Counted from the first letter of the stretch, positions 29,746 to 44,915 are shown. The stretch: 64,000 nt of DNA from Bacillota bacterium (GCA_013178305.1 JABLXB010000001.1:62001-126000); one strand, 5' to 3'. Numbers and translations are program-made. The notes: a model not told the origin generated them from the letters alone.

Positions 29746-30553
29746 TATGCACCCTCCCTCCGTCTGTTCCGGCGCGCGCGTTCGAACGCGCGTACTCGGC
29801 CTGTGCGTAACCGAGGCACGCCGAGAGTTCGCGGGCCGCGGTCACCACGAGGTTCACAAGGCACTCCCTGCCGCCGGCTCCGAGCCTGGCGGCGGGGCCG
29901 GAGACGCTGATTGCTGCCACTGCCCGCCCTGTAGTGTCGCGGACGGGGGCGGCAATGCACACGACCCCTTCCTCCCGCTCCTCGTCGTCCACCGCGAACC
30001 CCGCCGCCCGAACCTTCTCGAGCTCCGCCTCGAGGTCCGCAGCCACGCACATGGTTTTCGGGGTGAACCTCTCGAGTTCACAGTCATCGATGATCTTCCC
30101 GAGTTCCTCCGGGCTGAGGTCCGCCATGAGTGCTTTCCCGACGCCCGTGCAGTGCGCGGGGACTCTGGCGCCGAGGCGGGTGAACGTTTTCATCACCCTG
30201 TCGGGTAGACTCTGAGCGACGTATACGACCGAGTCGCCGTCAAGGATTGCGAGGTTGGCAGTCTCCCCCGTCGCCTCCATGAGCCGCCTGAGATACGGGT
30301 CGGCGGCATCTCGTATGTCCAGCGTCTCGGCCACCGCCGCGCCGACCGCAAACGCCCTCAGCCCGAGACGGTACTGCCGCGTGGCCGGGTCTTGCCCCAC
30401 AAACCCCCGGCGGCGAAGCGTGACCACAATGTGGTGCAGCGTGCTCGGCCTCAGACCGAGGCGCGAAGCCATCTCGCCCAGGCTCATCGGGCGTCGCTCG
30501 CGAGCCAGGAGCTCCATGAGCGAGAGCGCCTTGTCGACGGAGCCCAGCATCAT
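29729..30553 (-). CDS. IclR-family transcriptional regulator
   Basis: 274 residues. N-terminal winged helix (GSVDKALSLMELLARE, SLGEMASRLGLRPSTLHHIV) and C-terminal effector domain with GARVPAHCTGVGKALMADL and the VDDEEREEGVVCIAAPV segment. IclR proteins sense small organic acids such as glyoxylate, pyruvate or aromatic acids. The ATG at 30553 (or 30550) overlaps the DapA stop by ATGA, so it is translated with the lyase it may regulate. A frame open to 30697 adds an unlikely Arg/Ala-rich leader. The inverted repeat at 31474-31490 is a candidate operator. Confidence 0.92.
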   Translation of the reverse strand: MMLGSVDKALSLMELLARERRPMSLGEMASRLGLRPSTLHHIVVTLRRRGFVGQDPATRQYRLGLRAFAVGAAVAETLDIRDAADPYLRRLMEATGETANLAILDGDSVVYVAQSLPDRVMKTFTRLGARVPAHCTGVGKALMADLSPEELGKIIDDCELERFTPKTMCVAADLEAELEKVRAAGFAVDDEEREEGVVCIAAPVRDTTGRAVAAISVSGPAARLGAGGRECLVNLVVTAARELSACLGYAQAEYARSNARAGTDGGRVHNDRRV

Positions 30554-31443
30554 TTCTCCAACGCCGCGAGCGTATTGTCGAGTATAGTTTTCAGCTCCTC
30601 TCGCTGCTGGGCGCCGAGCGGCAGCAGCGGGGGCCTCGGGTCGCCACCGAAGTACCCGATCATGTCGAGCGCCGCCTTCAGCCCGGCGATTCCCCATTTG
30701 GCGGTGACCGCCGCGTTGAGATCCAGTATCCGCATCTGAAGGTCCCTTGCGGCCGCCAGATTGCCCCCGTTGAAGAGACTGACTATACTAGCGCAGGCAT
30801 CGGGGATCACGTTGGCTACAGCCAGCGTACCCCCCACGCCGCCCATCATCAGAGTCGGCAGGAGGAAGCTCCCCGACCCCGCGAACACCGCGAAGCCGCG
30901 CCGCGACCCCGCAACGATGTTGGAGATCTGGACGATGTCGCCCGAGCTGTCCTTGACCCCGATGATGTTCGGGTGGGCGGACAGCTGGACAACCAGCGAA
31001 GACGCCAGGTTGACTCCTGTATTGCGCGGCATGTTGTACAGCATAACGGGGCAGGGGCATCGGTCCGCTACGGCCGTGAAGTGCGCTTTCAGAGCGGCGT
31101 CCGTCATGGCGCCCTTGTAGTACCACGGGGTAACCACCAGGACTGCGTCGGCGCCGAGCGCGTGCGCGCGTTTGGACAGGCGCACGGTGGCGCGGGTGGA
31201 CTCGCAACCTGTCCCCGCGATCACCTTCTTGTCGGGGGTCAGGTTTTCCCTCGTGAACGCGATCAGGCGCTCCTTCTCATCCTCGTCGAGCAGCACGAAT
31301 TCACCGTTCGAGCCCAGAACGACCACGCCGGCCAGCGATGTCTTGGACCATTTGGCCAGGTTCTCTTTCAGCCGGCCATAGGCGACTTCCCCGCCCTCGA
31401 ACGGCGTTGGTACCGGAGCGAATATCCCAGAGAACAACTTCAT
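30550..31443 (-). CDS. Dihydrodipicolinate synthase (DapA) family lyase, copy 1
   Basis: 297-residue class I aldolase-fold enzyme: GSNGEFVLL for carboxylate binding, VMLYNMPRNTGVNL with the catalytic Tyr, and the Schiff-base Lys in IIGVKDSSGD. Family reactions include dihydrodipicolinate synthesis, 4-hydroxy-2-oxoglutarate or N-acetylneuraminate cleavage, and pyrroline-4-hydroxy-2-carboxylate deamination. A catabolic context with IclR regulator and aminotransferase argues against lysine synthesis. First gene of its transcription unit: it is preceded by a terminator and a possible promoter/operator. Confidence 0.9.
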   Translation of the reverse strand: MKLFSGIFAPVPTPFEGGEVAYGRLKENLAKWSKTSLAGVVVLGSNGEFVLLDEDEKERLIAFTRENLTPDKKVIAGTGCESTRATVRLSKRAHALGADAVLVVTPWYYKGAMTDAALKAHFTAVADRCPCPVMLYNMPRNTGVNLASSLVVQLSAHPNIIGVKDSSGDIVQISNIVAGSRRGFAVFAGSGSFLLPTLMMGGVGGTLAVANVIPDACASIVSLFNGGNLAAARDLQMRILDLNAAVTAKWGIAGLKAALDMIGYFGGDPRPPLLPLGAQQREELKTILDNTLAALEK

Positions 31444-31473
31444 ACCACCTCGATTCGGGCGACGGCCCGCATG

Positions 31474-31503
31474 ATTTCACATCTTGAAATGCTTGTCACT
31501 ATA
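31474..31503 (-). promoter_or_regulatory. Candidate promoter -10 and IclR-type operator upstream of DapA copy 1
   Basis: A perfect inverted repeat ATTTCA-N5-TGAAAT spans 31474-31490. On the minus strand it lies seven bases past a TATAGT -10-like element (31498-31503), so it would cover the transcription start. No good -35 is visible. TTTCA/TGAAA half-sites resemble known IclR-family operators; the IclR gene is the second gene of this unit. Confidence 0.4.
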
Positions 31504-31658
31504 CGAAACAGGGGGTCTTATTCTTCGTGGGGCCACAATAATCCTTCAGTCAACCGGCAGGCGGCGTGCCTGGCAGTTGGCAGCATGGCCGGCGGCAGGC
31601 GGCGGCCAGCGGTTAGCAGCTCCGGCGCTGGCCGGGGCAAGGCAGCGCCAAGGTTAAA

Positions 31659-31680
31659 GCCGGCCCAATCCAGGGCCGGC
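31659..31680 (-). terminator. Rho-independent-like terminator after DapA copy 2
   Basis: GCCGGCCC and GGGCCGGC form an 8-bp stem with a six-base loop. On the minus strand it is followed by TTTAACCTT. It lies 35 bases after the stop of DapA copy 2. The rest of 31444-31714 is GC-rich, repetitive-looking (GGCAGGCGGC variants) and holds no gene. Confidence 0.55.
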
Positions 31681-31714
31681 CTACCGGCGCGTTGACTTGC
31701 GGTCCGCTTACACC

Positions 31715-32629
31715 CTATCTCACCTTGTACTTCTCCGTTACGCCCAGTTCGTCCATCAACCGCCGCATCTCGGCCATGCGGTCGGGGGCCATCTCCGGAA
31801 GCGGCAGCCGCGGCTTGCCACACGGTAGCCCGAGGATGCCGAGAGCCGCTTTTACCGCCACGGGGTTCGTGACGCTGTAGAGCATCTTCAATAGCGCGTA
31901 GTACTTGAAGAAGATCTCCCTCGTGCGCTCGACGTCCTCGAACGTCCGCCACGGCCTGGACATGGCGGCCATTTCCTCGGGAATGATGTTCCCGCCGATG
32001 TTGGCCGTCCCGTGCCCACCCAGTCCGAGCGTCGGTATGGTTATCGAATACGCCGGGTAGTCGCAGCACAGAACGTGCAGCTTCCCTTTGGTGAGGCTGA
32101 GCACATCCGCGAGCTGCGAGACGTTCGGCATGGCTTCCTTGTCGGCAACGAAGTTGGGGCATTCATCCACCAGCCTGGCTATGGTGGCCGGGTCGATGTT
32201 GACCCCGACACGAATCGGGTTATTGTACACCGCGGTGGGAATGGACACGCTCTGCATGACCGTCTTGAAGAACTGGAACACGGCCTCCTGTGGAGGTCTG
32301 ATATACGACGGGATGACAAACAGCACCCCGTCCGCCTCGTTTTCCTCGGCAAAACGCGCGAGTTTAATCGTCTCCTTAGTGTTGGAGCAGGTAACCCCGA
32401 AGAACGTGGGCACCTTCCCCTTCGCGTAGGGAGCCACGCGCTTGATGATCTCGCGGCGCTCGTCGATAGACAGCATCGATGTCTCCCCCGTGGAGCCCAT
32501 CACCAGTAGCGCCGAGGTCCCGTGCCCGGCCTGGAAATCGATAGTCTCATGGAACCCCTCGAAGGCAACCTCGTCATCCGGTGTGAATGGGGTTGCAATG
32601 GCAACCCACGACCCACTCGGTCTCAGCAT
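31715..32629 (-). CDS. Dihydrodipicolinate synthase (DapA) family lyase, copy 2
   Basis: 304 residues, DapA fold: IATPFTPDDEVAFEGF, GSTGETSMLSIDERREI, AVYNNPIRVGVNI with the catalytic Tyr, and Lys in FVADKEAMPN, where the usual GVKDSSG is altered. The changed Schiff-base surroundings and weak similarity to copy 1 suggest a different substrate. It follows a C_GCAxxG_C_C-family gene on the same strand. The ATG has GGGAGAG upstream. Confidence 0.88.
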   Translation of the reverse strand: MLRPSGSWVAIATPFTPDDEVAFEGFHETIDFQAGHGTSALLVMGSTGETSMLSIDERREIIKRVAPYAKGKVPTFFGVTCSNTKETIKLARFAEENEADGVLFVIPSYIRPPQEAVFQFFKTVMQSVSIPTAVYNNPIRVGVNIDPATIARLVDECPNFVADKEAMPNVSQLADVLSLTKGKLHVLCCDYPAYSITIPTLGLGGHGTANIGGNIIPEEMAAMSRPWRTFEDVERTREIFFKYYALLKMLYSVTNPVAVKAALGILGLPCGKPRLPLPEMAPDRMAEMRRLMDELGVTEKYKVR

Positions 32630-33413: not shown

Positions 33414-36400
33414 GTGCAAGTAGTGGTCTGGGACAAGCCCGAACTAAGGGTGAGCATAGTTACGTTCATCAACCTGCAACACCGTGTAACGGTTGATGGC
33501 AACCTGGGCCCGCTCCATAAGCACTCGTGCAGCATCGAAGTTGAGATCACCCCCCCACACGAAAACATAATACCGTTCGCTGAGATAGAGTCCGAGGTCA
33601 GGGCGCAGGTCATGCCGTTCGATGGGAAGACGCTGAACGACATGGCCAACTTCCGGGACATCAATCCCACTATCGAGAACCTCGGGTGTCACCTGTATAA
33701 TCGCCTCACAGTCATCCTTGCCGAGTACGGCGCGGTCTTGCACTCGGTTACGGTGAATGAGTCGCCCACGAGGAGCGTCAAGCTCATAAACCCCCTCTCG
33801 GGGTCGAGGCAGGGAGCGCCGGATGGGGTGATGGCCCCGCCCAGCAACGAGTCCAGGGCGCCGTTCGGCAACTTGCCGGCGAGTCCCAACCAGCGAGCCG
33901 CGTACGAGTTCGGAGACCCCGTCCCCATTATCTCAGGCACCCGGCCGGGCGAAAGCTCGTCGCTGGATGGACGCGGGCAGATTCCGCCCAATCAAGGAAA
34001 CGACAAAGCCTCAAGTTCAGACTACCGTGGAGGGAATCCGGAAGTCGCCACACCACTACCCGGCCCTCCGGCTGCGCCGGTAGACGTGCCGGCCCACGAG
34101 AAGCCCGAGCCTTCCCTGGAACCGGTCGCTCCGGTTGAGGCGCCCGCGCTCATCTATGATTCGCTCCCCAGCAGAAGGCGAAGGAAAGAAAACCCCGCGT
34201 CGAGGCCAATAGGCGACGAGGTCGTTCACGGTTCAGCACGAACAGCGCGATCGACCATCATTGCCGTAGTATTGCTCATGGCTGTCTGCGCGCTCGTATA
34301 CCGGAACGTGCTCTGGCCTCCGTCTCACGCAGGCTACCCATGGGGTTCGGACACATGGGGGCATATCGCCAAGGCGGAGTTCCTTCTGCGAGAGATCAGT
34401 CGCGGCAACTTGTACCCGCGGTTTAACCCCGCCTGGTACAACGGCGTCGAGCCCTTCCGCTACTGGGCTCCCGCACCGTACTACGTGCTTGCTGCGCTGA
34501 TGCGAGTCGTTCGCGACCCATTTCGGGCCGCGGGGTGGTTCGTTGCGCTCTGCGCTCTTGTGGGCGCGCTGGGTTGGCTGCCCCACCGCCGCAGGCTCGG
34601 GCTCGCGGCCGCTGTCGCCGCGTCCGCTTTGTGGATGATATGGCCCGATCACATACGGGTCGCCATGTCCGAGGGCAACTTGCCGCGAGCCATGGCGACA
34701 GCGCTTTTCCCGTGGGCTCTCCACTGGTTCGTCATGGTGGTTGAACGCCGGGACTGGCCCATCAGTGGCCTTGCTATGACCCTGACCGCCGCCTTCCTGA
34801 TACTCACCCATGCCATGATTGCGGCCGCGTGTTTTGCCGAAATGACGCTCCTGGCGGTGCTATGGGGATTACTCGGAGGCATCCGGGCCAGGTCGGTGGC
34901 GCGTGGTGTGGGGACTATCTTCGCCGGAATAGGAACCGCGGCATGGTGGCTGCTACCCGCGCTGAAAGGCGGTATCACGTCAATCAACGTGGAAGCAGTC
35001 ACCGAGACAATGGATTACTTCCCGTTGACCACGAGCTTCAATCCTGTGCTGCGGATGACGAACCCCGAGGTGTTCTACTGGGGGATAGTCCTCCTCCCGG
35101 TTTCGCTCTGGGTGCTGTTCACATGGCACAAGCGAAGCTCGCTTGCCAGGGCGTCATTCCTGGCGGGAGCGGTCCTGGTAGCCATAACGACCACGACGCT
35201 CCGCCCGTTCTACAACTCGATTCCCCTGCACCACCTGCTCTGGCCCTTGTACATGGCCAGTGGTGCGTCGGCCATGTTCTTCCTGGCGGGATTGGATCCG
35301 GTTACGTTCGAGCCGGGCAGGCCGAGGAGACTCGCGACGGCCGTCCTCGTAGCCTTGCTGACGTTCTACCTGGCTGATGCGTACCCAAGCTTCAAGCTGA
35401 TCGACACCCGACCCATGCCACTTCACATAGAGAAAACCGCCCGCGAGATCCCGAAGGACGGGTGGCGCATCGCCACACTCGACCTTAGCGGGTTCGGTTC
35501 GGTGGGGACATACATGTTCGGTGACGGGTCGAGAAGGGAACAGGTTTTCGGCTGGGCCTGGCAGGGCGCAAACACGGCCAGTAGCATCGTGTGGCTGAAT
35601 ACCGCCCTGAAGGAAGGGCGAACTACCTTTCTGTTTGACAGGCTCAAGGAAATCGGAGCGACTTCACTCGTCGTCCGCAGGCAGGTCGTGGAGCACAACC
35701 TGGAAGACTTCCTGAGATCGGCTTCAGTTGCCGGCTACCGGGAGTCCTGGTGTTCGCCCGAGGTGATCCTGCTTACAAGGGATTCGGGGCCGTATGCCTT
35801 GAATGACCCGTACCAGGCGCTAGGTATTGGAAGGTTCGTCCCCAACCTGGCGATGATGTTCCCTGCCGTTGAAGTGGGAACGAGCAATCAGGTGGATATC
35901 TACACAATCGAATATCTCCAGCGATACCGCGTGGTTGTGTTGTCGGGGGCAACCTGGGCCAACAAGGCCAGGGCGGAGGATCTGTTGATGGCGTACGCGC
36001 GCGGAGGGGGTCGCCTCGTCATCGACATGCAGGACCTTCCTGAGGACGTGCTCTCCAGAAGACCCAGCGTGCTAGGCGTAACTGGCGAGCCGGTACTGCT
36101 TTACCGGCGGGTGGAAGTGCTCGAAGACGGGCGTCCTGTAATGGAGTTGAGGAACTTCGACGATGCGCACTATCCCTGGAAAGCCTTGAGTCCTCAAGGC
36201 CTGGATCACATGATCCTATACTTCGATCATTTCCAGGAAAACGCAGCGCTGCTCGGCACCAAGAAGGTTGACGGCGGCGAGGCCTGGTTCATTGGGGCGA
36301 ATCTTCCGTTCCACGCCTACCTGACAGGGGATCCGGCAGCCCTGTACGTCCTATCACAGGCTCTCACCCTTCAACTATATGCCCCGCCGGAAAGGCGTCA

Positions 36401-36758
36401 GATCCCGCTGGAGGGCTATGTAGCAGATGCGGATGGGTACCGTTTCTCGCTGATGGTGCCCCAGGAATGGGGCGAGAGCAGGGTACTCATCCCTGTCGCC
36501 ACTCGTGAGAATACGGAACTCATAGTTGATGGCGTGCCGGCCTCCAGCGAGTCGATCCACAATCTGCTCGCAGTTCGAGTAACGCCCGGAAGACACACGG
36601 TAAGCGCGCGCACGACGATTCCTACCCCGTCTCGCGCGGGCATTTTGGTATCCATCGTTTCGTTGATATGTTTCGGCGTGGTGACCAGTCTCCCCCGACG
36701 AGGTGTAGGACGTGAAGTCGTTTCGACTACTGGCGCTACTCACAGCACTGCTGATTAG
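33414..36758 (+). CDS. QueD/PTPS-like domain fused to PTPS-related GT-C-like membrane protein
   Basis: 1114 residues. Residues 1-125 are a 6-pyruvoyl-tetrahydropterin-synthase-like domain. His 23, 35 and 37 (LHKHS) match the zinc ligands, and NPTIENL plus VTVNESPTRSVKL match the family, but I see no catalytic Cys between the His sites. A Pro-rich cytoplasmic linker runs to about 270. A multi-helix membrane domain (about 275-650) begins with GYPWGSDTWGH and continues with NPAWYNG, as in lipid-sugar-using GT-C enzymes (PTPS_related family). The C-terminal 450 residues are probably extracytoplasmic. It leads the exosortase locus. GTG start after GGGGTG. Confidence 0.82.
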   Translation: MQVVVWDKPELRVSIVTFINLQHRVTVDGNLGPLHKHSCSIEVEITPPHENIIPFAEIESEVRAQVMPFDGKTLNDMANFRDINPTIENLGCHLYNRLTVILAEYGAVLHSVTVNESPTRSVKLINPLSGSRQGAPDGVMAPPSNESRAPFGNLPASPNQRAAYEFGDPVPIISGTRPGESSSLDGRGQIPPNQGNDKASSSDYRGGNPEVATPLPGPPAAPVDVPAHEKPEPSLEPVAPVEAPALIYDSLPSRRRRKENPASRPIGDEVVHGSARTARSTIIAVVLLMAVCALVYRNVLWPPSHAGYPWGSDTWGHIAKAEFLLREISRGNLYPRFNPAWYNGVEPFRYWAPAPYYVLAALMRVVRDPFRAAGWFVALCALVGALGWLPHRRRLGLAAAVAASALWMIWPDHIRVAMSEGNLPRAMATALFPWALHWFVMVVERRDWPISGLAMTLTAAFLILTHAMIAAACFAEMTLLAVLWGLLGGIRARSVARGVGTIFAGIGTAAWWLLPALKGGITSINVEAVTETMDYFPLTTSFNPVLRMTNPEVFYWGIVLLPVSLWVLFTWHKRSSLARASFLAGAVLVAITTTTLRPFYNSIPLHHLLWPLYMASGASAMFFLAGLDPVTFEPGRPRRLATAVLVALLTFYLADAYPSFKLIDTRPMPLHIEKTAREIPKDGWRIATLDLSGFGSVGTYMFGDGSRREQVFGWAWQGANTASSIVWLNTALKEGRTTFLFDRLKEIGATSLVVRRQVVEHNLEDFLRSASVAGYRESWCSPEVILLTRDSGPYALNDPYQALGIGRFVPNLAMMFPAVEVGTSNQVDIYTIEYLQRYRVVVLSGATWANKARAEDLLMAYARGGGRLVIDMQDLPEDVLSRRPSVLGVTGEPVLLYRRVEVLEDGRPVMELRNFDDAHYPWKALSPQGLDHMILYFDHFQENAALLGTKKVDGGEAWFIGANLPFHAYLTGDPAALYVLSQALTLQLYAPPERRQIPLEGYVADADGYRFSLMVPQEWGESRVLIPVATRENTELIVDGVPASSESIHNLLAVRVTPGRHTVSARTTIPTPSRAGILVSIVSLICFGVVTSLPRRGVGREVVSTTGATHSTAD

Positions 36759-37446
36759 CCTTGCCAGCCCAAGGGCCGCTCAGGCTGCGACCCGGATCGT
36801 GCTTGACGGGGAGTTCGACGATTGGGGGGGTAAGGCACACCTTGATGATCCACCCGGAGACGCACGCAGGGGTGATTACGACCTCGTGCGGTTGTACTGG
36901 GCGAACAACCCCGATCAGGCGCGGCTCTACTTCATGGTAGAGAGGCTCGAGCATCATAAAAACGACCACAAACCGGTGTTGTACGTGATGTTCATCGACA
37001 CCGACAACGACGGGAGGTTCAACGGACCCGCAGATGCCCGAGTGGACGTGCGGTATGCACCGAAGTCGCTCGGCCTGGTAACAGTGATGGTCTTCAGGGG
37101 GCCGTTTCCCGTGGCGGGGTACGGCGGTCTCTGGGGAGAAACGAGTGATGAGGGCGGCACCCGGTGCGAGTGGCCTGTGGAGTTCTCCGATATTGACATA
37201 GAGCCCGGACAGGTGATCCGAATGGTGCTGTTCGCCACCGACAACCCCCCGAATCGGCCCAGCATAGGAGCGTATGAGAACCTGGCATCCTCGGGAAAGG
37301 CGGACCGCCTTCCCGATTCCGGCGATATACAGTGGGCGCCTGTGCCAACCGCCCCTTCGTGGTTCCATCTCGTGCCCCTGGCAATGTGCGTGCTTGCCGC
37401 GGGGCGATTCTACTCATGGAGGAAGCGCACATCGTACCTGTCATGA
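36712..37446 (+). CDS. Secreted beta-rich (DOMON/CBM9-like) protein with exosortase-type C-terminal anchor
   Basis: 244 residues. Signal peptide to about residue 25 (ASPRAAQA). The body has VLDGEFDDWGG and a Ca-binding-like DTDNDGRFNGPADAR, resembling CBM9/DOMON sandwich domains. The C-terminus has PTAPSW, a hydrophobic stretch at 217-231, then a basic tail RFYSWRKR, the layout of an exosortase sorting signal. The exosortase gene begins at its 3' end. GTG start after GAGGTG; it overlaps the upstream gene by 47 bases. It could be the dedicated exosortase substrate or an anchored sugar-binding protein; no enzyme activity is implied. Confidence 0.7.
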   Translation: MKSFRLLALLTALLISLASPRAAQAATRIVLDGEFDDWGGKAHLDDPPGDARRGDYDLVRLYWANNPDQARLYFMVERLEHHKNDHKPVLYVMFIDTDNDGRFNGPADARVDVRYAPKSLGLVTVMVFRGPFPVAGYGGLWGETSDEGGTRCEWPVEFSDIDIEPGQVIRMVLFATDNPPNRPSIGAYENLASSGKADRLPDSGDIQWAPVPTAPSWFHLVPLAMCVLAAGRFYSWRKRTSYLS

Positions 37447-38048
37447 TCCTTTCTCCGGTTGCGGCCGTAGCGGCCGGCTGGTTCACCATCTATCTGTTCT
37501 TCAGGAAGGCCCGCGCGTGGCTCCTGGCTTACGTCGTCGGGGCTGTGGGGTTTACACTCATCGCCATCTACCTCGCGCGCGGGTCCTGGCTGGAGGAGCA
37601 GGTGGAAGCCGGCGCGGCGCTCGCGGCTCACTGGCTGTCCAGCCTGGTGGGAATACCCACCCGTGTATTCTTCGATGCTCCTGGAACCCTGCTCGTGCTC
37701 ATCGTGTATCAGGTGATGGGCTGGACCGCTGTGGAGATCGACATTGAGTGCTCCGGCATACTGGAGTTGGCCGCTTTCGCCGGCCTAGTACTATTCTTCG
37801 AGGGATTCGAGTGGTGGAAGCGGCTGCTCATACTCACCGGCGGTCTGCTCCTAACATTCGGGATGAACGTCATCCGCATACTCATCGTCGTCGCCACCAT
37901 ACACCGGGGCGGCAAGGACGCTATCTACCTGGCCCACACCCTTATAGGAAGGGCCGTGTTCTTCGCGATGGTGATCGGGTTATACTGGTACGTCTTTACC
38001 CGCCTGACCATGGAGACTATCCGGCGGCGGATTTCGGGTGACCGGTGA
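37416..38048 (+). CDS. xrtG: Exosortase family protein, XrtG-like
   Basis: 210-residue integral membrane transpeptidase-type protein. The family catalytic residues are visible: Cys 112 in DIECSGILELAAF, Arg 154 in NVIRILIVV, and His 174 in YLAHTLIGR. These sit at the outer membrane face and would cut and re-attach sorting signals. The neighbouring GT2 and PTPS-related proteins match the known XrtG context of Gram-positive bacteria. The start is uncertain: ATG 37416 is used, while ATG 37443 gives an ATGA overlap with the upstream stop. Confidence 0.85.
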   Translation: MEEAHIVPVMILSPVAAVAAGWFTIYLFFRKARAWLLAYVVGAVGFTLIAIYLARGSWLEEQVEAGAALAAHWLSSLVGIPTRVFFDAPGTLLVLIVYQVMGWTAVEIDIECSGILELAAFAGLVLFFEGFEWWKRLLILTGGLLLTFGMNVIRILIVVATIHRGGKDAIYLAHTLIGRAVFFAMVIGLYWYVFTRLTMETIRRRISGDR

Positions 38049-39406
38049 TGCTGAAGGCTGCTCTCTTGAGATTTGCCCTGTTCTGGGGCATCTGGATACT
38101 GGTACCGATAGCCATCGACGGCATCAGCGCCATCGCATATCTCTGGGCGAGCCTCACCCACGCCGAATTGGCCACGGGCGACAGCGGGGTCAAGCGACCA
38201 GCGATACTGGCAACCATCCTGATCCCGGTCTACAACGCCGAACGCAGTCTTTACCGGTGCATTGAGTCGCTGGCATCCCAAACGTACCCACACAGCGCCA
38301 TGGAGATCATTTGTATGGGCAACGCGGTGACCGACAATAGCATCAGGGAGTTCACGAGAGCACAGGCACGATTCGGTTCGCTCAACGCAATGTGGGTTTC
38401 ACTTTCACAGCGGGGCAAAGCGCGAGCGCTCAACGCTGGAGTGCTGCTATCCAAAGGCACTGTCGTAATCAACATTGACGCGGACACCCGATTGGGCCCC
38501 AACGCAGTGGAACGAATGGTAGCAGCCTTCGAGGACGACCCCGACCTCGGTGCCGCCAGCGGCTCAATACACGTAGACCTCCTGCCCCCCGGCGCACCGT
38601 GGTGGTGGAGGTTGCTGAACGCCTGCGAAATCCTCGAGTACCTCGCGGCGTTCCGTATCGGAAGGCGCTTCCAATCCCGCCAAAACGCGGTCTTCACGCT
38701 ATCCGGCGCCTTCTCCGCATTCAGGCGTTCGGTGGTCCTGAGCACCCACCTGTACGATGACAAGACGGTGTCGGAGGACACGAATCTGACATTCGACATC
38801 AGAAACGTGGAAGGGGGCAGGTGGCGGATAGCCTGCATTCAGGGCGCGGAGGCATTTGTGGAGCCGACGCTCTCGCTGTCCAAGCTCATGTCACAAAGGC
38901 TCAGGTGGCAGCGAGGACAGCTCGAGGTAGCGTCCCTGTACCCGCGATACTGGAGGACAAACCCCATTTCGGCGCTAACCCATTTCACGAGCCGGATCCT
39001 CCTTGGTGATCACACGCTGTCCTTCCCGCGACTGGCATGGACGTTCATAATCCCGTACCTGTACCTCTTGGGGTACTCGCTCCCGCTGGTCGCCGCCGCG
39101 CTCTGGCTAACGTATTTCATGTACGTCATCGTTGAGTTCCTGTTCCTGCTGTCCATCAGGAAGGCGTTGTGGGCAGCGTATCGTATGCCCATCGGGAACT
39201 GGTGGCATTTGTCCCTGGTCATGCCAGTATACAGGTCGTTGATCTACTGGTTCCGGTTGGCGGGAATGATCTACGCACTGTGCGAGCCGGCGAGCTGGTC
39301 GGCTGAGAATGAAATCGAACGGGTGAAGAAGGAGGCCTACAGGCTGTGGAGTCGCCTGCGCCGGACAACCGAGCGCGCTGTTGCCAGGCGAGGGGGGGCC
39401 GTCTAG
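38048..39406 (+). CDS. Glycosyltransferase family 2, exosortase-associated, processive type
   Basis: 452 residues. An N-terminal membrane helix is followed by a GT-A catalytic domain with ILIPVYNAERSLYRCI, DAD at about 144-146 (INIDADTR), SED (KTVSEDTNLTF) and QRLRW (SQRLRWQRGQ), then C-terminal membrane helices from about 320. The D,D,D,QxxRW set is that of cellulose/hyaluronan-synthase-like processive enzymes. This suggests synthesis of a surface glycan linked to the exosortase product. The ATG overlaps the exosortase stop (TGATG). Confidence 0.88.
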   Translation: MLKAALLRFALFWGIWILVPIAIDGISAIAYLWASLTHAELATGDSGVKRPAILATILIPVYNAERSLYRCIESLASQTYPHSAMEIICMGNAVTDNSIREFTRAQARFGSLNAMWVSLSQRGKARALNAGVLLSKGTVVINIDADTRLGPNAVERMVAAFEDDPDLGAASGSIHVDLLPPGAPWWWRLLNACEILEYLAAFRIGRRFQSRQNAVFTLSGAFSAFRRSVVLSTHLYDDKTVSEDTNLTFDIRNVEGGRWRIACIQGAEAFVEPTLSLSKLMSQRLRWQRGQLEVASLYPRYWRTNPISALTHFTSRILLGDHTLSFPRLAWTFIIPYLYLLGYSLPLVAAALWLTYFMYVIVEFLFLLSIRKALWAAYRMPIGNWWHLSLVMPVYRSLIYWFRLAGMIYALCEPASWSAENEIERVKKEAYRLWSRLRRTTERAVARRGGAV

Positions 39407-41916
39407 AGATCAACCGTATCTGCTGGTTAGATTTGGGAATTGCAGGGACGGTTTGTTCATACGCGGTCATTATCCTTGCAGTGTTGAGTGCAGGCTGGCG
39501 AGTGTTTAGTGCACCGGGCAACCTTTACCCTGGTGGCATAGACGGACTTGGACATCTTCTAAAGGTGAAATGGACCGCCGAGAAATGGAACGCCCTCTCT
39601 TTCGGCGATTGGTTCCCGTACTGGTACAACGGCTCTACCGGTATCCAGTACTATCCGCCTTTGGCTGTCTGGGGACCAGCAGTCCTGCACCTCATTTCCG
39701 GAAGCGTTTTCAATACGTTCAAGGCTATTGCACTCTTGTCAATGGTCTCGGCGGGAATCGCAACCTTCCATCTAGCGCGCGCAGCGGGAATCCAACGGGC
39801 TGGGGCCACACTGGCAGGGGTTCTATATGCGGCCGGGCCCTACACGTTGTTTACAATTTTTGCCGACAATACCCTTGGGCGAGTCGTAGCGCTCCCGTTG
39901 TATCCGATGCTGCTGGGTTCGTTCATCCGGATTCCATTTCAAGTGGCGTACCGCGATATAGTGCGTTTGGTGCTGTTATCCGTCCTACTGATCCTTGCCC
40001 ACGCCATGCAAGCCTACATGTTTGCCATCACAATCGCTATAGTACTGGTGGTACACGGCGCTCACCATCGGGGATTCTGGAGGACGCTCCAGGTGGGGGC
40101 CTTCGTTGGGCTAGTTGCGCTCCTTCTGTGCGGTTTCTGGGCCGTCCCCGGGGTTACGGGCTGGGAGAATCCCGGTCTCCCTTGGGCGCCCCCCGAGCGT
40201 CTCCTGCACAACTCTCTGAATCCAGCCAGGATTGATATTCTCATCCATCGATTTGGAGCTGTCTATATATCCGCAGCTGTCTTGGCCTGCCCGTTCTCCG
40301 TTCTAAGGAAGCCGAGGAGCAGTCTCCAAATGGGACTATCCGTCGCCTTCCTGGTTTCATCGACTCTATGCTTTGGTCCGTCAAATCCCTTGTACTGCGC
40401 CATCCCCCTGGGGGCAAGCTTGTTCCCTGCAAGGTTCCTGAACTGTGCGTACCTGCCGGCGTCCGTACTTGTAGGCAGTCTCGTCGACCGACTAATCCAG
40501 AACTCGCTGCACTTGGAAGGACGAAAAACCGTAGCCGTGCTCGCTGCATCGGTTGTTGCGGTCGGGCTCTTATCCGACATCAATCATGCACGTAAGGCGA
40601 TTTCGGGGCCCACAGATCACTTACTGATTCGCAGCCTGGTATCGGAAATCCCCGCAAGGCCAGGCGGACCGTTTGGAAACGGCAGAATGGCTCTCGAATT
40701 ACCCCTAATGGATTCGTTCCAATCTTACTACCCAGTTGTGAACGGCTTCAACATTACTTCAGGCTGGAATCTAGAGGGTACTCCCCACATACGCACCTTT
40801 CATCAACATAATATTGCATATCGAGACGGCTTTCCTGAGTATGTGGTGCGAAACTGGACTCTGTGGAATTGTCGTTCGGCTCTATTTGACGAGACCTATG
40901 CCAGCCTCCGACCAGTACTCGAACGTGCGGGGTGGCGATTCATTTCACATAGATCTGGCTATATGGTGTTCTTCAACGACGCGCTTCCCACTTACTTGAT
41001 GAGTCTTGACTGCAGGGCCATCGTCATAGGCAGGAGCAGCTTCTATGTGAGCAGACTTTTCCCGTGGGTTACCGAAGGTCGAGAGGCGGATGCGCTACAT
41101 TATACCCCTGAGTACATAAATCAATTTCGGTTAGTCTACCTATACGATCTACCCGCCACCGACGTCTCGAGACTTGAGTCCACTATTCGTAATTGGGTTA
41201 GGCGAGGCCAAACGGTGATAATTGACCTCTCGGCCTCGGGTATTCCTGCGGTTTTTGGCGTAACAAAGACCGATACGGAAGTTGACGGCAAAGTCACTCT
41301 CGCTCCCTCAACAACATCCCCCTACAACGGGGCCGTACAACTGATCCTGGAGAAAGGAGCTGGCGCAACTTATGATGGCCTTGATGACGTATGGCTCACC
41401 GCTAGAGTCGGTGACGCCGATCTGCCAGTAGTAGGGGCGAAGTGGATCCCCGAAGGTAAGGTCTTCTTTACGGGATTGCATCTACCTCGTCTCCTATCGC
41501 TATCGTACAAGGAAGCCGTCAGGGAGTTGCTCGGCCAACTGTTAGAGCCAGCACAGCCAACCGGGTCAACGCTAAGCCCATATACCCCCGTATGGCATCA
41601 GTGGTATAGCAATGGAGTGGAGTTCTACTACGACAACCCCGGTGAGCAATCGTTGCTCGTGTCCTTGACTTACACGCCTCGCTGGCATTGCACGGTTGAC
41701 GGGGGAAGTTGGCCCGTCCTAAACCACGAGAACCTAATCTACCTGATTCTCCCCCCCGGGAAACACGTGGTACGGATCCGATACGGATCCACGTCGGCAG
41801 TATGGGCAGGTTGGGCGTTGACAGCCGCGGGTTTGTCTGCCCTATTAGTGTTGCGCCGGTCATCAATGCTTGAGCGCTGGAAGGTGAACTCTACGCGAGC
41901 GGGTTCCAGGGGGTGA
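39346..41916 (+). CDS. PTPS-related GT-C-like membrane protein (second copy)
   Basis: 856 residues. Its membrane domain parallels that of the 33414-36758 product: LYPGGIDGLGHLLKVKW with the Asp/His loop motif, PYWYNGSTGIQYYPPL and about 10 helices to roughly 410. Then comes a long extracytoplasmic part and one C-terminal helix (TSAVWAGWALTAAGL). It lacks the QueD-like domain. GTG start with GGAGG ten bases upstream inside the GT2 gene (61-base overlap). The coding DNA is visibly more AT-rich than upstream genes. Probable lipid-linked sugar transferase; activity unproven. Confidence 0.8.
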   Translation: MESPAPDNRARCCQARGGRLEINRICWLDLGIAGTVCSYAVIILAVLSAGWRVFSAPGNLYPGGIDGLGHLLKVKWTAEKWNALSFGDWFPYWYNGSTGIQYYPPLAVWGPAVLHLISGSVFNTFKAIALLSMVSAGIATFHLARAAGIQRAGATLAGVLYAAGPYTLFTIFADNTLGRVVALPLYPMLLGSFIRIPFQVAYRDIVRLVLLSVLLILAHAMQAYMFAITIAIVLVVHGAHHRGFWRTLQVGAFVGLVALLLCGFWAVPGVTGWENPGLPWAPPERLLHNSLNPARIDILIHRFGAVYISAAVLACPFSVLRKPRSSLQMGLSVAFLVSSTLCFGPSNPLYCAIPLGASLFPARFLNCAYLPASVLVGSLVDRLIQNSLHLEGRKTVAVLAASVVAVGLLSDINHARKAISGPTDHLLIRSLVSEIPARPGGPFGNGRMALELPLMDSFQSYYPVVNGFNITSGWNLEGTPHIRTFHQHNIAYRDGFPEYVVRNWTLWNCRSALFDETYASLRPVLERAGWRFISHRSGYMVFFNDALPTYLMSLDCRAIVIGRSSFYVSRLFPWVTEGREADALHYTPEYINQFRLVYLYDLPATDVSRLESTIRNWVRRGQTVIIDLSASGIPAVFGVTKTDTEVDGKVTLAPSTTSPYNGAVQLILEKGAGATYDGLDDVWLTARVGDADLPVVGAKWIPEGKVFFTGLHLPRLLSLSYKEAVRELLGQLLEPAQPTGSTLSPYTPVWHQWYSNGVEFYYDNPGEQSLLVSLTYTPRWHCTVDGGSWPVLNHENLIYLILPPGKHVVRIRYGSTSAVWAGWALTAAGLSALLVLRRSSMLERWKVNSTRAGSRG

Positions 41917-41923
41917 GTGGTCT

Positions 41924-42277
41924 ATGTCAATGGCATTGGTTTCAATCCTGCTAGGCAGCACGGGTCAGTTCCTGTTAAAGCTGGGGGTGACAAGGCTCGG
42001 AGGAGTAAGATGGGGTCCTGGGCTTTTCATCAGCACAATCTTCGATGTCTTCATGGAACCTTTTATCGTCTGCGGAGTTGGCTTGCTCGGAATCAGCATG
42101 CTGATTTGGTTAGCAGTAATCTCGAGGATGCAGCTCTCAACAGCGTACCCTTTGGTGTCACTGTCCTATGTGATGGTCACGATCATGTCGAGGTTGTTCT
42201 TGGGCGAACCTCTGACACTATCAAAGGCGCTGGGTATGTCTCTGATACTTGCGGGAATAACGGCGATTAGCAGATAA
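41924..42277 (+). CDS. EamA/SMR-like small membrane transporter (ArnE/ArnF-like)
   Basis: 117 residues, four hydrophobic helices. GSTGQFLLKLGVTRLGG in helix 1 and STAYPLVSLSYVMVTIMSR in helix 3 are typical of the DMT superfamily halves that flip polyprenyl-phosphate sugars (ArnE/ArnF type). SD GGGGGTG eight bases upstream. It directly follows the PTPS-related protein and faces two polyprenyl-phosphate sugar transferases, so a lipid-sugar flippase fits. The last 57 bases overlap the convergent GT2 gene. Confidence 0.82.
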   Translation: MSMALVSILLGSTGQFLLKLGVTRLGGVRWGPGLFISTIFDVFMEPFIVCGVGLLGISMLIWLAVISRMQLSTAYPLVSLSYVMVTIMSRLFLGEPLTLSKALGMSLILAGITAISR

Positions 42278-43015
42278 GGGCAGACAGACGCCCGCTGGGG
42301 ACCAGCTTCTGGGTTTCAGACTCAACGCCAGGTACCCGAGGATGGTCTCGGCGACCCTCATCTTGCTGGGCGACTGCTTTCGATCATAGAGTAGAGTAAG
42401 AGGTACTTCAGCGATCCGAGGGCACAAACTGCACAGGCGGAGCAGAAGTTCTACCACCCCTGCGAACCCTCTGGAATCGACAACCTGTGCCGTACTGCTG
42501 AGAAGTGCGGCTTTAATCAGGGAAGATCGGTAGGCTCGGTAATTTGTGGAATAATCTCTAAGACCTTTTATCGGAAACATCAACTTCATGAAAATGGAGG
42601 CCCCGAGGCTCAGCAAGCGCCGGGCCGTAGTCAACCCCTGCTCTGCTGCACCTGCCGCATATCGCGAGGCAATCACAATATCGTAACCTTCTTTAATCTT
42701 GTCAACCATCGTCGTAATGAGCGACACTGGGTGACTTGCATCAGCATCCATGGTTACAATTACATCCGTCTCTTGACGAAGTGCTTCGCGGAACCCCTCG
42801 ACTAAGGCCGCCGGTAGCCCACGATTAGGAGTATACGACACGACCCTCAGTCGTTTGTCTTGGCAGGCCCACGCTTTAAGCATTTCCAGCGTTCCGTCGG
42901 TACTCCCATCGTTCACAGCAACGATCAGATCTACGCAATTCGCCCGGTCCAGTTCTTCTCGCAGCAGCCGGACGGACCGTTCCTCGTTAAACATAGGTAG
43001 GACGAGTACGGTCAT
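42221..43015 (-). CDS. Glycosyltransferase family 2, DPM1-like
   Basis: 264 residues: LVLPMFNEERSVRLL, VNDGSTDGTLEML, and VTMDADASHPVSLI with the DxD metal site, then IASRYAAGA and YSTNYRAYRSS as in polyprenyl-phosphate mannose/glucose synthases. No C-terminal membrane helices are present. The ATG immediately follows the stop of its partner GT2 upstream. The C-terminal 18 codons overlap the convergent transporter gene. It probably loads a sugar on undecaprenyl phosphate for the GT-C proteins. Confidence 0.9.
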   Translation of the reverse strand: MTVLVLPMFNEERSVRLLREELDRANCVDLIVAVNDGSTDGTLEMLKAWACQDKRLRVVSYTPNRGLPAALVEGFREALRQETDVIVTMDADASHPVSLITTMVDKIKEGYDIVIASRYAAGAAEQGLTTARRLLSLGASIFMKLMFPIKGLRDYSTNYRAYRSSLIKAALLSSTAQVVDSRGFAGVVELLLRLCSLCPRIAEVPLTLLYDRKQSPSKMRVAETILGYLALSLKPRSWSPAGVCLPLSANRRYSRKYQRHTQRL

Positions 43016-44199: not shown

Positions 44200-44745
44200 C
44201 TATGGCCGTTCTGCCAGGCACGCCAGGGTATGCTGATACACCTCGAGATCCCCTGGAGTAAACAGTACAAGCCGGATCTCGGCAAAATGGTTGTGCAGCA
44301 GGACGTATTCCTTGACGGCCTCCAGCGCTATTCGCGCCGCGCGGTCGATGGGGAACCTGTATGCTCCGGTGCTGATTGACGGGAACGAAATCGTCTTAAC
44401 CCCGTTCTCCGCCGCCACTGCTAGGCTGTTGAGATATGCGCTGCGCAGGAGAGAGTCTTCTCCCGCGGTCCCGCCGCGCCACACCGGGCCGACGGCATGA
44501 ACCACAAACCTCGCCTTCAGATTGCCGCCGCCGGTGATGACCGCCTGGCCGGCCGGGCACCCGCCTTGCCTGGCGCAGATCCGCTTACACTCCTCGAGGA
44601 TTGAGGGGCCCCCGGCCCTGTGGATGGCGCCGTCAACGCCGCCTCCTCCCAACAGGCTACTGTTGGCCGCATTGACGATCGCGCCGGTATCCTCCTGCGT
44701 GATGTCACCCTGCTTCAGCACGACCCTGGTCGAACCCCAGTTCAA
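44200..44745 (-). CDS. Macro-domain protein (ADP-ribose/O-acetyl-ADP-ribose hydrolase type)
   Basis: 181 residues, single macro domain: LKQGDITQEDTGAIVNAANS, LLGGGGVDGAIHRAGG and FPSISTGAYRFPIDRAA are the MacroD-type ADP-ribose-binding motifs. Such enzymes remove O-acetyl-ADP-ribose or ADP-ribose from proteins. The TTG at 44745 has GGAGG ten bases upstream. The ATG at 44763 starts just before that SD and lacks its own. It follows the convergent membrane-carrier gene divergently; no functional link is evident. Confidence 0.9.
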   Translation of the reverse strand: MNWGSTRVVLKQGDITQEDTGAIVNAANSSLLGGGGVDGAIHRAGGPSILEECKRICARQGGCPAGQAVITGGGNLKARFVVHAVGPVWRGGTAGEDSLLRSAYLNSLAVAAENGVKTISFPSISTGAYRFPIDRAARIALEAVKEYVLLHNHFAEIRLVLFTPGDLEVYQHTLACLAERP

Positions 44746-44915
44746 TGCTCCGCCACCTCCCATGGAACAGCATGGACTCTGGCAATCGCGCTTCCCCTGG
44801 GTGTTCGCTGTCTTCCACTCTGTATCCTGGTCGGTACGAACTTCAGTCCAACAGCAGGAGAAGAAGGGACGGCCGTTGAAACTCCGGTGAATTCCCTGAA
44901 ACAGGAGGTGCCAGA

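Follow-up and report, generated by a model that had tools for sequence, protein, structure and literature searches.

What is an exosortase for when its genome holds a single client for it and its neighbors are glycosyltransferases? This question is raised by a locus at 33414–42277 of the window, the whole 64,000-nucleotide stretch of Bacillota bacterium DNA analyzed here, where six plus-strand genes each overlap or abut the next. The whole source genome contains one such exosortase and one such client. The earlier note had read the genes as a complete machine for lipid-sugar synthesis, flipping, polymerization and attachment to a sorted protein. Profile searches and coordinates support its six overlapping genes on one strand, with one correction: for the exosortase, the start assigned at 37416 is less likely than the ATG at 37443, which overlaps the client stop codon as ATGA. 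Exosortase-model matches span the frame 37332–38048 and the TIGR03111 match spans the frame 38045–39406, in which the GT2 likely starts at the ATG at 38048. Promoter and terminator scans of the locus revealed nothing beyond chance, and the gene overlaps are the only sign of a shared transcript. Two adjacent dihydrodipicolinate synthase-family genes are situated upstream (30550–32629, minus strand), and a stand-alone macro domain protein adjoins the locus on its other side (44200–44763, minus strand; PF01661, 157 bits).

The exosortase (37443–38048, plus strand) does match exosortase models, the lack of which the earlier note had named as decisive against its reading. It scores 60.3–60.9 bits with TIGR04178 (exosortase/archaeosortase; cut-off 23) and 40.8 bits with PF09721 (cut-off 25.7). 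With TIGR03110 (XrtG) it reaches 99.3–100 bits (E about 1e-28), narrowly under the curated cut-off of 102.75. Among the four models suggested for checking the locus, TIGR03111, TIGR03112 and PF10131 exceed their cut-offs, and only TIGR03110 falls just short. Judged by these profiles, membership of the exosortases is certain and the appropriate label is "XrtG-type", since the strict XrtG family label fails by about 3 bits. A PDB profile search with the exosortase returned no match. The alignments confirm the intact Cys, Arg and His noticed earlier (IECSG, NVIRI and LAHTL), and the superfamily motifs Cys-X-Gly, Asn-X-X-Arg and His-X-X-X-Gly appear in the window as ECSG, NVIR and HTLIG. The window locus itself is thus an ordinary, though divergent, XrtG-type system.

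Directly after the exosortase, as first described, stands a processive-type, XrtG-associated GT2 (38048–39406, plus strand) with DAD, SED and QxxRW motifs, scoring 369.1 bits with TIGR03111 (cut-off 363.95). Its DxD, ED and QxxRW residues are invariant across the alignment, a feature of processive synthases. The first gene of the locus (33414–36758, plus strand) encodes a PTPS-related domain, a low-confidence linker and a PF10131 GT-C membrane protein with a DTWGH loop motif; the scores are 72.5 bits for TIGR03112 (cut-off 69.35) and 421 bits for PF10131 (cut-off 26.4). In Foldseek, its AlphaFold model (pLDDT 82) matches the GT-C enzymes AftD, STT3, DPY19 and ArnT (E 1e-9 to 1e-4), in agreement with the GT-C-like fold proposed for it. 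Within the loop motif, D313 is invariant across relatives and H317 nearly so.

The N-terminal domain of this protein (residues ~17–122) had been called QueD-like. Foldseek supports the resemblance through QueD/PTPS matches and the zinc HxH motif is kept, but the catalytic Cys, which we take to lie upstream of the HxH motif in QueD, is absent. Across the sample of relatives, HxH is missing from only 6 PTPS domains, and none has a Cys at the QueD position. Therefore, the domain probably binds a ligand rather than making one. Four Lachnospiraceae-type loci (L014, L105, L108, L113) carry two PTPS-related domain genes, one on each side of Xrt-GT2.

The second PF10131 GT-C protein (MEM2; 39346–41916, plus strand; 183 bits, cut-off 26.4) carries a DGLGH motif and belongs to an accessory subfamily. 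It had been regarded as a local duplicate of the first; instead, the two are old paralogues, and MEM2 travels with an accessory module. The small flippase (41924–42277, plus strand) was recognized correctly: it is an ArnF/SMR-like four-TM subunit according to ArnF-like models, scoring 68 bits with NF002816, under the cut-off of 99. The opposite strand carries a DPM/PgfS-like GT2 (42221–43015, minus strand; PF00535, 79.7 bits). In long loci, a DPM-like GT2 accompanies MEM2 in 9 of the 10 cases having MEM2 and the flippase in 11 of 13; MEM2, flippase and DPM-like GT2 form an accessory module whose parts recur together in relatives. The set of MEM2-type GT-C, flippase and DPM-like GT2 is the usual undecaprenyl-phosphate-sugar glycosylation module, in which the DPM-like GT2 is the probable polyprenyl-phosphate sugar donor synthase.

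The client (36712–37446, plus strand) consists of a signal peptide, an ectodomain, a GDIQW-APVP motif, a TM helix and the basic tail WRKR. It thereby carries the tripartite C-terminal signal (WAPVP, TM helix, RKR), whose pre-TM motif APVP is located at 37336–37347. No Pfam or NCBIfam model matches the protein above threshold, its ectodomain has no Pfam family, and TIGR04145 (Firmicu-CTERM) gives 10.9 bits against a curated cut-off of 50. This weak match is the only TIGR04145 match in the genome, and in several relatives the gene directly upstream of the exosortase is also among the best matches to this model. Comparison of nine window-type clients with ten clostridial/lactobacillar clients by hhalign gave a probability of 97.9 and an E value of 5.7e-13 over 181 columns, signal included; two clients within the clostridial/lactobacillar set score 224 and 120 bits with TIGR04145. 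For L. plantarum, whose XrtG system is complete (LP_RS09075–09090), a 2026 paper describes XrtG together with a Firmicu-CTERM protein and a pair of glycosyltransferases (PMC12854382). As judged by the profile comparison, the secreted protein is a divergent member of the wider Firmicu-CTERM family, the described partner of XrtG. The substrate had been considered undefined; its class has in fact been named before, and the window locus carries a divergent member. In the open-access literature, the name Firmicu-CTERM was found in a single paper. Structural searches gave no significant match for the client ectodomain and no significant fold match for the fused client-Xrt model (AlphaFold model of a natural fusion, pLDDT 88.5, pTM 0.81); a carbohydrate-binding fold for the ectodomain was not confirmed by the Pfam and fold searches.

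Relatives were collected by searching the phylum, class and family with TIGR03110 and with alignments, and by a GT2 alignment scan of named genomes; the exosortase query found no match in genome contigs, and the GT2 alignment served as the query instead. The resulting nonredundant sample comprises 87 loci that encode Xrt as well as GT2; they come from Bacillota and Chloroflexota, apart from those on a single contig labelled Desulfovibrio. A further 250 GT2 relatives matched outside the sample. The order PF10131, client, Xrt, GT2 is found in most of the 87 loci, so that the conserved gene order expected in relatives was observed. The system is patchy: the phylum draw contained it in 13 of 398 genomes, the class draw in 7 of 101 and the Chloroflexota draw in 8 of 400. 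In Chloroflexota loci such as L060, L079 and L100, the client domain is preceded by long N-terminal extensions, and in several of these loci a PTPS-like domain forms the end of a protein of 460–600 residues.

The site at which XrtG acts on its client is suggested by a covariation between the two proteins, in which the exosortase nucleophile pairs with the second Pro of the window's APVP. We compared 53 loci whose client is separate and whose motif is alignable; in five of them the GT-C protein ends in the client domain. The Pro count excludes fifteen clostridial/lactobacillar loci, whose motif is built differently. Where Xrt has Cys, Pro directly precedes the client TM helix in all 27 loci (SPIP, APVP, SPMP, SGAP and others). 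Where Xrt has Ser, the residue is S, N, D or T in all 26 (SPAS, SPAN, SPAD, SGAT, SGAN). Among all Xrt columns, the normalized mutual information to the client Pro is 1.00 for the Cys column and 0.54 for the next; among client tail positions, that to the Cys is 1.00 for the Pro and 0.45 for the next. Three held-out loci from an independent Chloroflexota draw fit the rule (L168, Cys with SGAP; L170 and L173, Ser with SPAN).

The Cys/Ser trait shows about four changes both on the GT2 tree and on the Xrt tree computed without the Cys column, and a single Ser clade is rejected on each (AU p 3.9e-49 and 2.3e-4, respectively). The independent pairs, of which there are 4, including 3 on starred branches, are all concordant. 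Because there are few independent switches, about four between Cys and Ser and one fusion, the sign test is not significant (p 0.25 and 0.125). The tree statistics favor several coupled switches, without proving causation alone. Such a small number of switches, together with the tendency of small clades to yield perfect pairs through clade signatures, could suggest a phylogenetic accident, in which a few clade splits differ at both sites by chance. We consider this very improbable, as every switch is concordant and none discordant, the two coupled sites are the presumed nucleophile and the presumed cleavage motif, the Cys column far outscores all others in Xrt, and the held-out loci conform.

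The covariation could also mean that the Ser-form Xrt of Chloroflexota is an active serine exosortase, the client Pro having given way to S, N, D or T as a match for the new chemistry. All Ser forms keep Arg and His, and the switch occurred several separate times. The replacement is limited to S/N/D/T, and the flanking SPA-x-x-[LF]G is largely retained, unlike the drift expected after enzyme death; because of this limit, the Ser forms do not appear to be simply dead. Conversely, the fused Ser forms described below still have Pro, and they adjoin forms with N, T, R or H, which are improbable nucleophiles. We regard an active serine enzyme as tentative, somewhat short of an even chance, and compatible with the other readings. 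Since the fused Ser forms retain the motif Pro, the Cys/Pro rule is limited to separate clients.

That holding the client may matter more than cutting it is suggested by natural fusions. In one clade of 17 loci (SH-aLRT 99), nested among Cys forms, client and Xrt form a single chain of about 400 residues. The client TM helix and basic tail are gone, and a WxPFP motif leads directly into the first exosortase helix. The nucleophile position is occupied by N, S, T, R or H, with Cys in 0 of 17, and the motif Pro is kept. The sole apparent counterexample, a fused protein with an intact Cys (L094), was traced by tblastn to a frameshift in a separate client gene, and a "fused, D" motif was a regex artefact, L141 reading KVFP. 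Two nearby fused client-Xrt loci (L055 and L064) occur on contig JAGVAS010000056.1 in a MAG labelled Desulfovibrio; as both group with Bacillota copies, the likely cause is transfer or mis-binning of the contig.

One of these copies, L064, has Ser and is frameshifted, and another member, L043, lacks the Arg as well, as might be expected if the fused Cys-less forms were decaying pseudogenes. However, the clade covers many genera, its Xrt-client frames are open, and the PFP motif, the His and the GT2 are conserved, so that decay is scarcely credible as an explanation. Fusion has also taken other forms. In five loci, belonging to another lineage and in one case to Chloroflexota, the GT-C protein carries the client at its C terminus and the exosortase retains Cys. 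In L098, the PTPS domain, GT-C protein, client and exosortase make up one chain of 1539 residues.

We propose, with a probability of roughly 0.58, that the locus as a whole is best explained as a glycan synthase with the exosortase-client pair as an integral part, whose core role would be to scaffold the client and in which cutting can be replaced by fusion. The sequences establish the gene set and its order, the client family, the Cys–Pro coupling and the disappearance of Cys upon fusion. The GT2 would make a polysaccharide, which the PF10131 GT-C protein, tuned by the catalytically inactive PTPS domain, would modify or extend outside the membrane; MEM2, the flippase and the DPM-like GT2 would add decoration. 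The client is very likely the target of XrtG, which would bind it at the pre-TM motif. From the covariation we infer that the Pro-containing motif is the processing site, where the nucleophile works. As the Cys form is intact, cleavage of the client in the source genome is likely: XrtG would probably cut at or beside PVP, hold the client as a thioester and then pass it on to an acceptor. The conserved core role would be to hold the ectodomain of the client next to the synthase on its outer face, with cutting as one implementation. One lineage has fused the client to Xrt and no longer has the nucleophile, so what selection preserves in the long run seems to be the holding of the ectodomain at the synthase. 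Processing may therefore be dispensable while client, Xrt and synthase stay joined, and cutting may not be the core job of XrtG. A stronger form of this idea is that XrtG-type catalysis is optional, as suggested by the Ser switches with their matching change of the client Pro and by the one fusion to a pseudo-exosortase, with an ancestral role as outer-face scaffold or cofactor for a glycan synthase and sorting secondary; we place this just below even odds.

The main competitor is classical sorting, in which XrtG would cleave the client and attach it covalently to the locus polysaccharide or the lipid carrier of that polysaccharide, in line with the earlier note, the Cys-less forms being specialized side branches. 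The intact Cys/Arg/His in the window, the tripartite signal of the client and the constant adjacency of synthase genes are consistent with it, as is the archaeosortase model, in which a lipid receives the thiocarboxylate intermediate (PMC7157517). Conversely, the source genome has one client, whereas PEP-CTERM cargoes number 1–65, with a median of 8 (PMC1569441), and fusion of the client to Xrt or the GT-C protein in several lineages would be odd for a secreted cargo. This reading therefore appears rather unlikely. Of the first interpretation, the locus type, GT2, GT-C fold, flippase and gene order stand. The undefined substrate and the duplication do not. Attachment to a sorted protein is a proposal, and it cannot be the universal purpose, given that the fused clade keeps the rest of the system in the absence of the catalytic Cys.

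The coupled change of a single residue in the enzyme and a single residue in the client indicates the processing site without a structure, and the natural fusions indicate which half of the system is indispensable. Annotation overstates sorting in these genomes because family models name Cys-less proteins exosortases: L053, a Cys-less fused relative, passes the TIGR03110 cut-off with 103.1 bits. In the open-access literature we found no study placing the action site of XrtG on its client or stating its purpose, nothing joining exosortases with pseudoenzymes or 6-pyruvoyl, and no report of the family-wide Cys/Pro and fusion pattern; the Haft 2012 review lies outside that scope and may mention the pattern earlier.

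The closest known system is XrtG itself (TIGR03110, TIGR03111, TIGR03112, TIGR04145), with which the window locus shares the same four adjacent components, Cys/Arg/His and a dedicated client. It differs in missing TIGR03110 by those few bits, in not reaching TIGR04145, in its [SA]P[VI]P motif instead of the clostridial/lactobacillar GTPTGP or GSTGP types, and in its additional GT-C, flippase and DPM module. The PEP-CTERM/EpsH system likewise has a Pro-containing motif followed by a TM helix and a basic tail, the same three exosortase motifs, and linkage to exopolysaccharide genes, but the source genome has only a single client. In its founding paper the exosortase Cys was called invariant (Haft 2006, PMC1569441); XrtG-type relatives include forms with Ser, Asn, Thr, His or Arg at this position, and in some the client is fused to the enzyme or the GT-C protein. 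The archaeosortase A of Haloferax volcanii resembles the window exosortase in that thioester chemistry is presumed to act at a tripartite signal at the C terminus of the substrate (PMC7157517). Its proposed acceptor is a lipid made by PssA/PssD, whereas the neighbors of the window exosortase are glycosyltransferases. In the BcsA-BcsB cellulose synthase, a processive GT2 works with a partner outside the cytoplasm that is anchored through a C-terminal TM helix, an arrangement that the proposed scaffold would resemble by analogy only.
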